Made by a program: the position numbers and the translations under genes
NCBI GenBank assembly: GCA_019639055.1
Contig: JAHBSP010000006.1
Span: 62,001-126,000 of the forward strand
Direction: 5' to 3'
Length of the DNA stretch: 64,000 nucleotides
Source: Microbacteriaceae bacterium
Lineage (GTDB): Bacteria; Actinomycetota; Actinomycetes; Actinomycetales; Microbacteriaceae
The notes under the pieces: generated by a model
What the model saw: only the letters and a program-made list of their open reading frames with translations
Databases searched by the model: none
What the model was told of the DNA's origin: nothing
Shown: positions 29,265 to 32,423 of the stretch, one piece after another
Layout of the letters: each line of letters opens with the position of its first letter
Position numbering within the stretch: position 1 is the first letter of the stretch

Positions 29265-30911
29265 TTAGAGGGATTTTGCGATGCCTCGACCCACCTGTCT
29301 CCCAGAAAAGAGACAACCACCAAGGAAGGTTCCTTCGAGTGCTCGGTATCCATGCATCCCTCCGCCACCGAAACCGTTAACTTCTCCAGCCGCGTATAGC
29401 CCTGCGATTGGGTTGCCTTTGACGTCTAGTACCTGCCCATCTAGGTTAGTTTCGATTCCACCGAGGCTCTTTCGGGTGAGAATATTTAGCTTCACGGCGA
29501 TAAGTGGGCCATTCTTCGGGTCGAGGAATTTGTGTGGTGGTGCGGTGCGGATAAGTTTATCCCCACGATAATTCCGCGCAGTCCTAATAGCCATAATCTG
29601 TGAATCTTTGGTGAACTCGTTGTCTATTTCGCGATCTCGGGCCTCCACCAGCTCCTTGATTTGGGCAGTGTCGAGCGGAGTTTCTGCAAGACCATTCATT
29701 CCTACTACCAGCTCTTCAATTGTGTTAGCGACAACGAAATCTTCACCGTGTTCTTTGAACGCTTCGACTGGTCCGGTCGCTCCCTTAGACAGTCTTTCTT
29801 TCAACAGTTTTCGGATGCTCTTCCCGGTCAGGTCTGGATTCTGTTCACTTCCCGAAAGTGCGAACTCTTTCTCGATTACTTTTTGCGAGAGGATGAACCA
29901 GGAGTAGTCGTGTCCGGTTGTGCGAAGGTATTCCAACGTGCCTAGAGTGTCAAAACCTGGCCAGAGTGGTGGTGGTAGTTGCTTGCCGGTGGCATCCAAC
30001 CAGAGCGAGGAAGGGCCGGGAAGAATGCGGATTGCGTGCTTCTCCCAAACCGGATCCCAGTTCTTTATCCCTTCCACGTAGTGCCACATGCGGTCAGGGT
30101 TGATGATGTTCGCACCGGCAGTTTCAGCGATTGCGTATCCGCGACCATCCACGTGCGCTGGCACTCCGGAGAGCATATGTTTTGGTGCGTCTCCCAAACG
30201 CTTTGGCCAGTGTTTGCGAACAAGATCGTGATTGCCGCCGATGCCTCCGGTGGACATCAGCACAGCACCGGCCTTGAATTCAAAATCAGCTATTTCGGTA
30301 CGGTTGGATGCTACACCGCGTTCAGAATCATCTGCTGCCAAGACTTTCCCGGTGACGCCGACGACAGCGCCGTTATTAGTTGTCAGTGAATCAACGCGGT
30401 GACGATGGAGAATTTGTACTTTGCCGGCTGCCTCAGCATCCTTAACAATTTTTACAAAAGGTTCGATAACGCCTGGCCCTGTGCCCCAGGTGATGTGAAA
30501 CCTGGGAACTGAGTTGCCGTGACCGAGTGGACCGTATCCACCGCGCTCAGCCCATCCCACCACTGGGAAAAAGTTGAAACCCAGGCAGCGAAGCCAAGGG
30601 AGTTTCTCGCCGGCTGCAAACTCCAAATACGCCTTTGCCCATTCCTTTGGCCATTTATCCTCTGGTCGGTCAAAGTTGGCCGAACCAAACCAGTCCTGGG
30701 TGGCGAGTTCTAGGGAGTCTTTTACGCCCATCCTCCTCTGAAAGGGAGAATTGATTAGGAAGAGGCCACCGAATGACCAGAATGCTTGACCGCCAAGGTT
30801 GTGCTCGTTTTCCTGGTCTAGGAGGAGCACACTTTTGCCGGAATTGATAAGTTCAGCAGTTGCGACAAGCCCAGCAAGGCCCGCGCCAACGACTATGACG
30901 TCTTTGTCCAT
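29265..30911 (-). CDS. FAD-binding dehydrogenase (KstD/fumarate reductase flavoprotein-like)
   Basis: A 548-residue flavoprotein. The N-terminal dinucleotide motif is VVGAGLAGLVATAELINSG, and the C-terminal FAD site LYAAGEVNGFGGGGMHGYRA is characteristic of actinobacterial FAD-binding dehydrogenases annotated KstD-like. Family members oxidise or reduce C-C bonds next to carbonyls. There is no other steroid gene here, so the substrate is not known. The start lies nine bases past the HEPN gene stop on the same strand. Confidence 0.83.
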   Translation of the reverse strand: MDKDVIVVGAGLAGLVATAELINSGKSVLLLDQENEHNLGGQAFWSFGGLFLINSPFQRRMGVKDSLELATQDWFGSANFDRPEDKWPKEWAKAYLEFAAGEKLPWLRCLGFNFFPVVGWAERGGYGPLGHGNSVPRFHITWGTGPGVIEPFVKIVKDAEAAGKVQILHRHRVDSLTTNNGAVVGVTGKVLAADDSERGVASNRTEIADFEFKAGAVLMSTGGIGGNHDLVRKHWPKRLGDAPKHMLSGVPAHVDGRGYAIAETAGANIINPDRMWHYVEGIKNWDPVWEKHAIRILPGPSSLWLDATGKQLPPPLWPGFDTLGTLEYLRTTGHDYSWFILSQKVIEKEFALSGSEQNPDLTGKSIRKLLKERLSKGATGPVEAFKEHGEDFVVANTIEELVVGMNGLAETPLDTAQIKELVEARDREIDNEFTKDSQIMAIRTARNYRGDKLIRTAPPHKFLDPKNGPLIAVKLNILTRKSLGGIETNLDGQVLDVKGNPIAGLYAAGEVNGFGGGGMHGYRALEGTFLGGCLFSGRQVGRGIAKSL

Positions 30912-30920
30912 AAGAGTATT

Positions 30921-31331
30921 TTATGAGGTTTTTGAGGATGTGATTTTTGCTACGGAAACTAGACTCGACGCAGCTCGGGAAATTTTGAGGATTTCTGTAA
31001 CAGAGATTGGGTCGTAACCATAACTCGCCCTGTTCTTGAAACTGAGCAAAGTTCTTAAGTGTTTTGCCGCGACCCCATCAATCGAAGAAAGTAGCGTAAC
31101 TGCCTGGTTATGATCAGAACTTATTGAATATGAGCCAAGTTTTTGGAGGCAAATAACATCAGAGGCAGCTATTCCTGCGTGAATGTAGAGAACTGCCGCA
31201 CTGTCTGTTCCGCCATCATTCGGCATATTCAACCTTGCCTCTTCTGCCATTTCCAAAAACTGGATTGCTTTGGAAAGTCTGCCCTTTGTGATTTTTATGT
31301 TTTGGCTTCGGTCAGGATTGCTTAGCTTCAT
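30921..31331 (-). CDS. HEPN-domain-like protein (putative toxin of MNT-HEPN pair)
   Basis: A 136-residue, mostly helical protein. The stretch AAVLYIHAGIAASDVICLQKLG and the ending LLSFKNRASYGYDPISVTE resemble a HEPN subfamily found next to nucleotidyltransferases in actinobacteria. In such pairs HEPN is usually the RNase-like toxin. The classic R-x4-6-H motif is not visible: the place corresponding to it reads RASYGY, so catalytic activity is uncertain. It overlaps the nucleotidyltransferase gene by 20 bases, implying coupled translation. Confidence 0.65.
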   Translation of the reverse strand: MKLSNPDRSQNIKITKGRLSKAIQFLEMAEEARLNMPNDGGTDSAAVLYIHAGIAASDVICLQKLGSYSISSDHNQAVTLLSSIDGVAAKHLRTLLSFKNRASYGYDPISVTEILKISRAASSLVSVAKITSSKTS

Positions 31332-31962
31332 CTGCGGAGGTGCTTTTCGATTTTGAGTGCAATTTTTTCTTTAACCAATTTGAGTCTCCGAAGACAGTAA
31401 TTCCTTCTTTGACAATCAGATCGAACACTAATGCTTCGCTGATTTCTGAGTTTTTATAAATTAGTGGATTGACTGGGTTGCCGGTCCACTTGCTAACAAT
31501 CTGTGTGATTTTAAACACTTGATCAGTTCCACCTCCGATTTCGTATAGATCATCCGGGAGGACGAAAAGGATGTCTATATCGCTATCATTGCTCATATCA
31601 TCTCTCGCTGCAGAACCAAAGATCATGACTGTGGATGGTTTCACCTCCCATTCAGAAATCATGGTGGCTAAACGGTCAATCAATAACTTTTTAGCTTGAG
31701 CAATTTGCAGTATTGCATCGATAAATAAGTGTTCTCTATTCAAGGCAAAAGCGTAGCTGCGGCCGGTGACCTGTTCCAAGACAGTCCCCTGTTTAACGAG
31801 TCGACGGATTGACTTCCTAACACCTTGAGGCGAACCTCCTTCAGGGAGTAGGTTATGAATTTTCTCGATTGTAAAGTAGTGATCGGCTCCTGAAAGCACA
31901 GTCAAGACCTGAGAGTCGATGCTGGTGGTGTCTAGAGCTGAGAAGGGATTCTGGAGTCGCAT
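31312..31962 (-). CDS. Winged-helix nucleotidyltransferase (MNT, putative antitoxin)
   Basis: A 216-residue protein. Residues 14-75 form a winged-helix domain (SQVLTVLSGADHYFTIEK; GVRKSIRRLVKQGTVLEQV). The minimal nucleotidyltransferase core follows, with FGSAARDDMSNDSDIDILFV (GS at 116-117, aspartates 128 and 130). No clear third acidic residue is seen. I chose ATG 31962, preceded by AAGGAG; the TTG at 31983 contains that site. Partnered MNTs can AMPylate the HEPN toxin. The winged helix suggests self-regulation through the three palindromes just upstream. Confidence 0.75.
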   Translation of the reverse strand: MRLQNPFSALDTTSIDSQVLTVLSGADHYFTIEKIHNLLPEGGSPQGVRKSIRRLVKQGTVLEQVTGRSYAFALNREHLFIDAILQIAQAKKLLIDRLATMISEWEVKPSTVMIFGSAARDDMSNDSDIDILFVLPDDLYEIGGGTDQVFKITQIVSKWTGNPVNPLIYKNSEISEALVFDLIVKEGITVFGDSNWLKKKLHSKSKSTSADEAKQS

Positions 31963-31992
31963 GATGCTCCTTCTAAATCGCAAGAGTTGTGT

Positions 31993-32046
31993 TCTACTAA
32001 AGTAGATGGATTTCTACTATAGTAGACGAAAATACACTAAAGTGCA
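31993..32046 (-). promoter_or_regulatory. Triple operator array upstream of MNT-HEPN
   Basis: Three 14-bp palindrome units begin at 31993, 32013 and 32033, exactly 20 bp apart. Reading the plus strand they are TCTACTAAAGTAGA, TCTACTATAGTAGA (a perfect palindrome) and TACACTAAAGTGCA (degenerate). The middle one contains a TATAGT that may serve as -10. The third overlaps the stop codon of the neighbouring gene. The regular two-turn spacing suggests cooperative binding on one DNA face, probably by the winged-helix MNT. Confidence 0.7.
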
Positions 32047-32423
32047 TAAAACTTTGTTAAATTCGGTAAAACCTTCGCAAGCTCATCCGCCCTAGCTCCA
32101 GAAGCAGTTACAAGCCCAGCAGATTTAGCAGTACTCCAATCCAAAGCCTCGGTTATAAGCAATAACCAAGTTTTTGGATCCATTTCCACAACATTAGGTG
32201 GTGTGCCTCGGCGATGATTACCGCCCTCAATAACCTGCACTGCAGAGTATGGCGGTACACGCAGTTCTACCGTGTGTCCGGGAGCTGCATCCGCCGTTAT
32301 TTGTAAACTGAAGCGCACCGCAGTGGGAAGTTCGTGCATCCCTAAAATATCCGCACCTTCTTTCAGTGCAGAAATCACGGCACTAAGCGCCGGTTTCCCG
32401 ACGGCTTCGGATATTCGTTTCAC
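32037..32423 (-). CDS. Sterol-carrier-family protein
   Basis: A 128-residue actinobacterial protein annotated in relatives as sterol carrier (SCP2-like) family. The phrases TVELRVPPYSAVQVIEGG, HRRGTPPNVVEMDPKTWLLL and LVTASGARADELAKVLP are close to the family consensus as I recall it. Actual lipid binding is not shown for the family. It is divergent from purD, 32 bases between starts, a common gene pair. Its last bases carry the third operator-like palindrome of the downstream MNT gene. Confidence 0.8.
   Translation of the reverse strand: MKRISEAVGKPALSAVISALKEGADILGMHELPTAVRFSLQITADAAPGHTVELRVPPYSAVQVIEGGNHRRGTPPNVVEMDPKTWLLLITEALDWSTAKSAGLVTASGARADELAKVLPNLTKFYAL

Follow-up and report, generated by a model that had tools for sequence, protein, structure and literature searches.

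Genes and Boxes at the Locus

The window, that is, the whole stretch of 64,000 nucleotides that was analysed, contains a gene pair composed of a minimal nucleotidyltransferase (MNT) gene and, overlapping its stop, the gene of a HEPN-fold partner. The following genes and features were delimited in and around this pair:

30921–31331, minus strand: HEPN-fold partner, 136 aa, overlapping the MNT stop (AF2 model, fold comparison)
31312–31962, minus strand: MNT gene, 216 aa, N-terminal wHTH and minimal nucleotidyltransferase, proposed self-repressor (Pfam, AF2 model)
31741–31920, minus strand: wHTH domain, about residues 15–74 (AF2 model)
31967–31972, minus strand: Shine-Dalgarno-like AAGGAG before ATG 31962 (sequence)
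32037–32423, minus strand: SCP_3 gene upstream of the MNT gene and on the same strand (Pfam SCP_3, 1e-34)

The start codon of the MNT gene was assigned to ATG 31962, because the alignment of its homologues begins at MRLQNPF, and TTG 31983 was rejected as an alternative start. The encoded protein matched the Pfam families NTP_transf_2 (6.3e-8) and, weakly, Penicillinase_R (0.001). Its AlphaFold2 (AF2) model, obtained with a 29-member family alignment (pLDDT 94.8), consists of a winged helix, with helices at residues 15–24, 32–38, and 45–58 and wing strands at residues 61–66 and 69–74, followed by a nucleotidyltransferase. Winged-helix regulators were the best structure matches for the N-terminal part, and MntA structures were the best for the C-terminal part (7bxo, Z 11.3, rmsd 4.7, 116 aligned). 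The catalytic motif of the nucleotidyltransferase was retained in nearly all of the 138 homologues described below (GS in 135, D128 in 135, and D130 in 137).

The HEPN partner (30921–31331) had no match in Pfam, and only chance matches were obtained when its profile was compared with PDB sequences. Its AF2 model (pLDDT 92.6) matched AF_0298 (2hsb; Z 17.3, rmsd 2.2, 119 aligned) and HepT chains (Z 9–10.6). A HEPN-like open reading frame was found directly downstream of the MNT gene in at least 79 of the 138 homologues, and this figure is an underestimate: short flanks were frequent, and a strict detection pattern, accepting R or K, and H, Y or Q, was used. Residues H74, K99, and Y104 were invariant in all 79 partners recovered, and they are shared by the window protein and the partners in L008–L074. 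The Rx4-6H RNase motif was absent from these 79 proteins, with K99-x4-Y104 in its place, and the toxin label of the HEPN protein is thus uncertain. Y104 could be a target of nucleotidylation.

In several relatives, SCP_3 is directly followed by a 103-aa gene, between purD and purF, and the MNT, HEPN, and FAD genes are missing. Since SCP_3 stands beside the 103-aa gene in these relatives, the cassette formed by the MNT, HEPN, and FAD-binding genes, together with the operator (29265–32046), looks like an insertion between the two.

Upstream of the MNT gene, four further features were recorded:

31993–32006, no strand assigned: operator box nearest the MNT gene, TCTACTAAAGTAGA (sequence; step-20 operator model)
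32013–32026, no strand assigned: middle operator box, TCTACTATAGTAGA (sequence)
32016–32021, minus strand: possible −10 hexamer TATAGT in the middle box (sequence)
32033–32046, no strand assigned: third operator box, TACACTAAAGTGCA, which reads TGCACTTTAGTGTA on the MNT strand (sequence)

The earlier note had described three palindromic boxes in exact 20-bp phase, a perfect palindrome in the middle copy, and a third copy located in the end of the neighbouring gene, and a direct reading of the sequence bore out all three points. The boxes begin at 31993, 32013, and 32033, the palindrome of the middle one being perfect over 14 bp. Perfect 6-bp arms flank AA in the box closest to the MNT gene, and 5 of 6 arm pairs match in the third box, which holds the SCP_3 stop codon (32037–32039). 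Near-identical letters are restricted to the first two boxes, the third having the core in common with them. The last codons and the stop of SCP_3 are written in operator DNA, so that the C-terminus of SCP_3 and the third box are constrained together. With the start at ATG 31962, the centre of the nearest box lies 37 bp from the MNT start codon.

Across the 1.42-Mb genome, sites with at most one mismatch from TCTACTAWAGTAGA were limited to two at this locus and one in the coding region of a helicase, and the occurrence of the boxes here thus exceeds chance. The latter (G000:C14:41751) was rejected as a second operator owing to this location within a coding region.

A possible −10 box had also been attributed to the middle copy. 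The hexamer TATAGT is indeed present, but it is not accompanied by a good −35: no convincing −35 was seen in the window, and no consensus sigma-70 promoter was found by the scan.

A 20-bp Step Upstream of Homologous MNT Genes

Homologues of the wHTH-MNT were collected from whole genomes, and 138 were kept, non-redundant at 85% identity. They occur across many actinobacterial lineages. Plasmids of Rhodococcus, Mycobacterium, and Curtobacterium also carry homologues, and none was found in phage records. Two plasmid genes, L285 (NZ_CP084587.1, 3001–3717) and L286 (NZ_CP126255.1, 3001–3905), have no annotated HEPN gene directly downstream. The gene next to the Mycobacterium intracellulare plasmid wHTH-MNT lies on the opposite strand, and that next to the Curtobacterium plasmid wHTH-MNT is annotated as a helix-turn-helix protein. 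At L025 (1501–2079), the homologue is broken by in-frame stops and an MNT-like reading frame remains, which suggests that the module is decaying in some genomes.

For each homologue, direct repeats at lags of 10–45 were sought in the 110 bp that precede the start, with no motif assumed. In 51% of the 138 homologues, repetition was best at a lag of exactly 20 bp; this was so in 2.2% of shuffles and in 1.7% of the control segments (2244 in number), and a secondary peak at lag 40 corresponded to a third box. Likewise, at least 11 of 14 positions matched at lag 20 in 51 of the 138 homologues versus 12 of the 2244 control segments.

We then described the operators by a model made of palindromic half-sites, in which the core is common to all loci and the outer bases are specific to each locus. 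The total LLR of this model was 1394 at a step of 20 bp versus 498–597 at steps of 17–19 and 21–23. With two boxes, a step of 20, and an LLR above 8, 80 of the 138 homologues passed, versus 2 of 552 shuffles and 1 of 600 controls. When a third box was allowed, 81 loci passed: the model placed two boxes at 55 of them and three at 26. A further set of loci, taken from another, named collection and kept out of model building, behaved in the same manner (12 of 18 passed at step 20, and 0–4 at other steps). The step-20 model was passed by none of 45 control loci carrying the nucleotidyltransferase domain only, for which start codons were set crudely.

The presence of the boxes upstream of the closest homologues had been set beforehand as a check in the earlier note. 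This expectation held for the boxes themselves, which were carried by all ten homologues with at least 45% identity (six of them with three copies), but not entirely for their letters, which were only partly conserved. The three boxes of L069, for example, are TCTACTTAAGTGCA, TCTACTTTTGTGGA, and ACTACTTTTGTGTC, and direct repetition at 20 bp is exact (14/14) in L009 and L026. Box letters vary among homologues, whereas the 20-bp step and an ACTA/TAGT core are kept. A search for the exact box was rejected as a conservation test, being too narrow, because the letters of TCTACTAWAGTAGA are not common to the homologues, whereas the step and the core are. The boxes of L039, L040, L042, and L044 are less regular, with 20-bp steps kept (in L040, GCGCACTATCCTGAGC, then GCGCACAAAATTGCGC, then GCTCAGGATGGTG). 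About 40% of the homologues fell below the model threshold. Some of these have palindromes arranged in other ways, as in L011 (43% identity), where a single palindrome is found in place of the 20-bp array; in others, the position of the start or of the promoter may be a different one.

The best −10-like hexamer fell in a box in 70 of the 81 homologous operators, in part owing to the resemblance of the core ACTATAGT to a −10. In 49 of the 81, the centre of the last box was located at most 25 nt from the start codon, and most or all of the array would probably remain untranscribed at these loci. This arrangement bears on the idea that the function of the repeats lies in RNA, with a leader hairpin or attenuator, or a terminator of SCP_3. 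The box region does fold better than shuffles (−23.5 kcal/mol, z −3.5), with pairing between neighbouring boxes, but any palindromic repeats would fold in this way, no terminator-like site was found by the scan, and RNA pairing needs neither an exact 20-bp direct repetition nor the covariation with a DNA-reading helix described below. Considering also the probable lack of transcription of most or all of the array in the 49 homologues, we regard a role in RNA as very improbable.

Covariation between the Operator Letters and the Predicted Recognition Helix

Among the 81 operators, half-site positions 4–7 were near constant (A 0.90, C 0.69, T 0.57, and A 0.70), and positions 1–3 were variable between loci and consistent inside a locus. 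When the mutual information between these outer bases and the 216 MNT columns was calculated, residue 46 ranked first, with a summed Z of 18.0 (11.7 for the next column), and its association extended to all three outer bases. The corresponding codon of the window MNT was located as follows:

31825–31827, minus strand: Q46 codon, first turn of the predicted recognition helix (residues 45–58); best column for operator letters (covariation, AF2)

Other high-ranking columns were those of residues 44, 47, 50, and 54, which belong to the recognition helix or lie where it begins. For the most part, E46 was associated with CCA or CCC, Q46 with TCT or TCC, and Y46 or F46 with GCA. Exceptions were a few loci which have a common residue 46 but different outer bases (A, S, and T classes).

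Shared descent may also generate such covariation, and its contribution was limited, although not fully excluded, by the use of identity-matched strata. In pairs matched for nucleotidyltransferase identity (<45%), a shared residue 46 increased operator similarity by 0.17, against a mean of 0.007 and an sd of 0.026 over 190 evaluable columns. Since one cluster held most of the loci, permutation within clusters was a weak phylogenetic control, and we therefore relied on the identity-matched comparison and on the rank of residue 46 among the columns.

Covariation with residue 46 is expected if the MNT binds the boxes and is hard to explain if another protein does. In an early view, the MNT-HEPN pair was considered to lack a transcription regulator and possibly to borrow one in trans, and a trans DNA-binding component was proposed for such pairs by Makarova et al. 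(PMC2701414). If another regulator acted in trans on the boxes described here, operator letters that change between homologues would not be expected to track a residue of the MNT recognition helix, yet they do. Moreover, no other use of the box was seen in the genome, and none of the 45 loci with the nucleotidyltransferase domain only shows the step. Control of the boxes by a regulator other than the MNT thus appears unlikely to a marked degree.

Probable Self-Repression by the MNT

The step found across the family, the boxes of the closest homologues, and the covariation with the recognition helix strongly support the reading put forward in the earlier note, namely that the boxes are phased operators of the winged-helix MNT itself. 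Judging from these sequence comparisons, it is highly probable that the MNT represses its own MNT-HEPN operon via the three boxes, with phased dimers over the promoter. The boxes would form the operator of the operon and be bound by the MNT through its N-terminal winged helix, presumably with one dimer per 14-bp palindrome; residue 46 and its neighbours, where the recognition helix begins, would read the three outer bases of every half-site. As the array covers the probable promoter, with TATAGT in the middle box, binding would be expected to repress the operon.

At a distance of 20 bp, about two turns, adjacent dimers would lie on almost one side of the double helix, in a position to touch each other, and may bind cooperatively. 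Conditional cooperativity, suggested in the earlier note, would in addition make DNA affinity depend on the toxin:antitoxin ratio, and the HEPN partner or nucleotidyl transfer may modulate binding. Alternatively, the self-operators are real, but the 20-bp step only ensures coverage of the promoter, without contact between dimers, binding being independent or negatively cooperative. Rv2827c, which binds four inverted repeats with negative cooperativity, provides a precedent for this (PMC7319586). Independent binding, however, needs no exact 20-bp step, and the total LLR was more than halved at 19 or 21 bp, so that we consider promoter coverage without dimer contact rather unlikely, and favour phased dimers able to touch. 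The sign of the cooperativity is nevertheless not guessable, because AbiEi binds with positive cooperativity and the AbiEi-like Rv2827c of M. tuberculosis with negative cooperativity (PMC7319586).

Comparison with Known Systems

The gene pair resembles MntA-HepT (SO_3165-SO_3166 of Shewanella, and the pairs of Aphanizomenon and Legionella) in gene order, with the MNT gene first and the HEPN gene second and overlapping, in the GS..SDxD motif, and in the match of the MNT C-terminal half and of the HEPN fold to MntA and HepT structures. The Shewanella antitoxin SO_3165 is the single MNT reported to bind its own promoter, in which two dissimilar palindromes are found, and it has no predicted DNA-binding domain (PMC4621449). 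In contrast, the window MNT has a wHTH, its operator is a 20-bp phased array, and its HEPN partner carries K-x4-Y, not Rx4-6H. The window MNT scored 32.9 bits against the NCBIfam model MntA_antitoxin, below the cut-off of 60. Because the Rx4-6H motif is lacking and this cut-off was not reached, the pair was not classified among the MntA-HepT toxin-antitoxin systems, although it may work like one. Operators were not treated in the paper on the Legionella HEPN-MNT pair. For a pair of Mycolicibacterium confluentis (AWB99_RS04530-04535), toxicity of the HEPN protein and its neutralisation by the nucleotidyltransferase have been reported (PMC13284704).

A second related pair is PDC-M05, a candidate phage defence pair of a nucleotidyltransferase and a HEPN protein (PADLOC), the antiviral role of which is unconfirmed (PMC12988326). 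The gene pair is the same, and PDC-M05A was matched by 29 of 29 family MNTs, over the wHTH and the nucleotidyltransferase (2.3e-13 over residues 14–178 for the window MNT). The window HEPN protein had no match to PDC-M05B, and 9 of 42 partners matched it weakly. No description of a PDC-M05 operator was found in the literature searched.

In sequence, the wHTH resembles BlaI/MecI (Penicillinase_R), with a weak match (Pfam, E 0.001; PDB 1p6r with the family profile, E 0.003) which, for the window protein, falls below the Pfam cut-off. BlaI/MecI proteins are not known to have a nucleotidyltransferase, and their operators are different.

With AbiEi and Rv2827c (AbiE, type IV), the window MNT shares the plan of a two-domain antitoxin that represses its own operon via repeats over the promoter, self-repression being the probable reading in the case of the MNT. 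The known repeats differ in being 23-bp inverted repeats located 3 or 13 bp apart (PMC7319586). Furthermore, the nucleotidyltransferase is a separate toxin in AbiE, whereas it is fused to the DNA-binding domain in the window MNT.

Implications for the wHTH-MNT Branch

A wHTH-MNT branch with phased operators was not found described in the literature searched, in which few subscription journals were covered. We tentatively propose, as a possibility that we hold less probable than its converse, that this branch fuses an antitoxin enzyme with a repressor, that it follows a fixed 20-bp dimer rule in which one or a few residues of the recognition helix determine the operator letters, and that the state of the nucleotidyltransferase or the K-x4-Y HEPN protein gates DNA binding, which would make the pair a sensor-switch and not a plain RNase toxin-antitoxin. 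If this were true, the setting of the operator letters by few residues would insulate each module from its relatives.

A large branch of MNT proteins brings a DNA-binding domain of its own, an operator rule that can be recognised, and a residue that is a candidate for specificity, and self-repression, specificity, and insulation are therefore directly testable. The operator rule also provides a sequence handle by which wHTH-MNT modules can be found and annotated.
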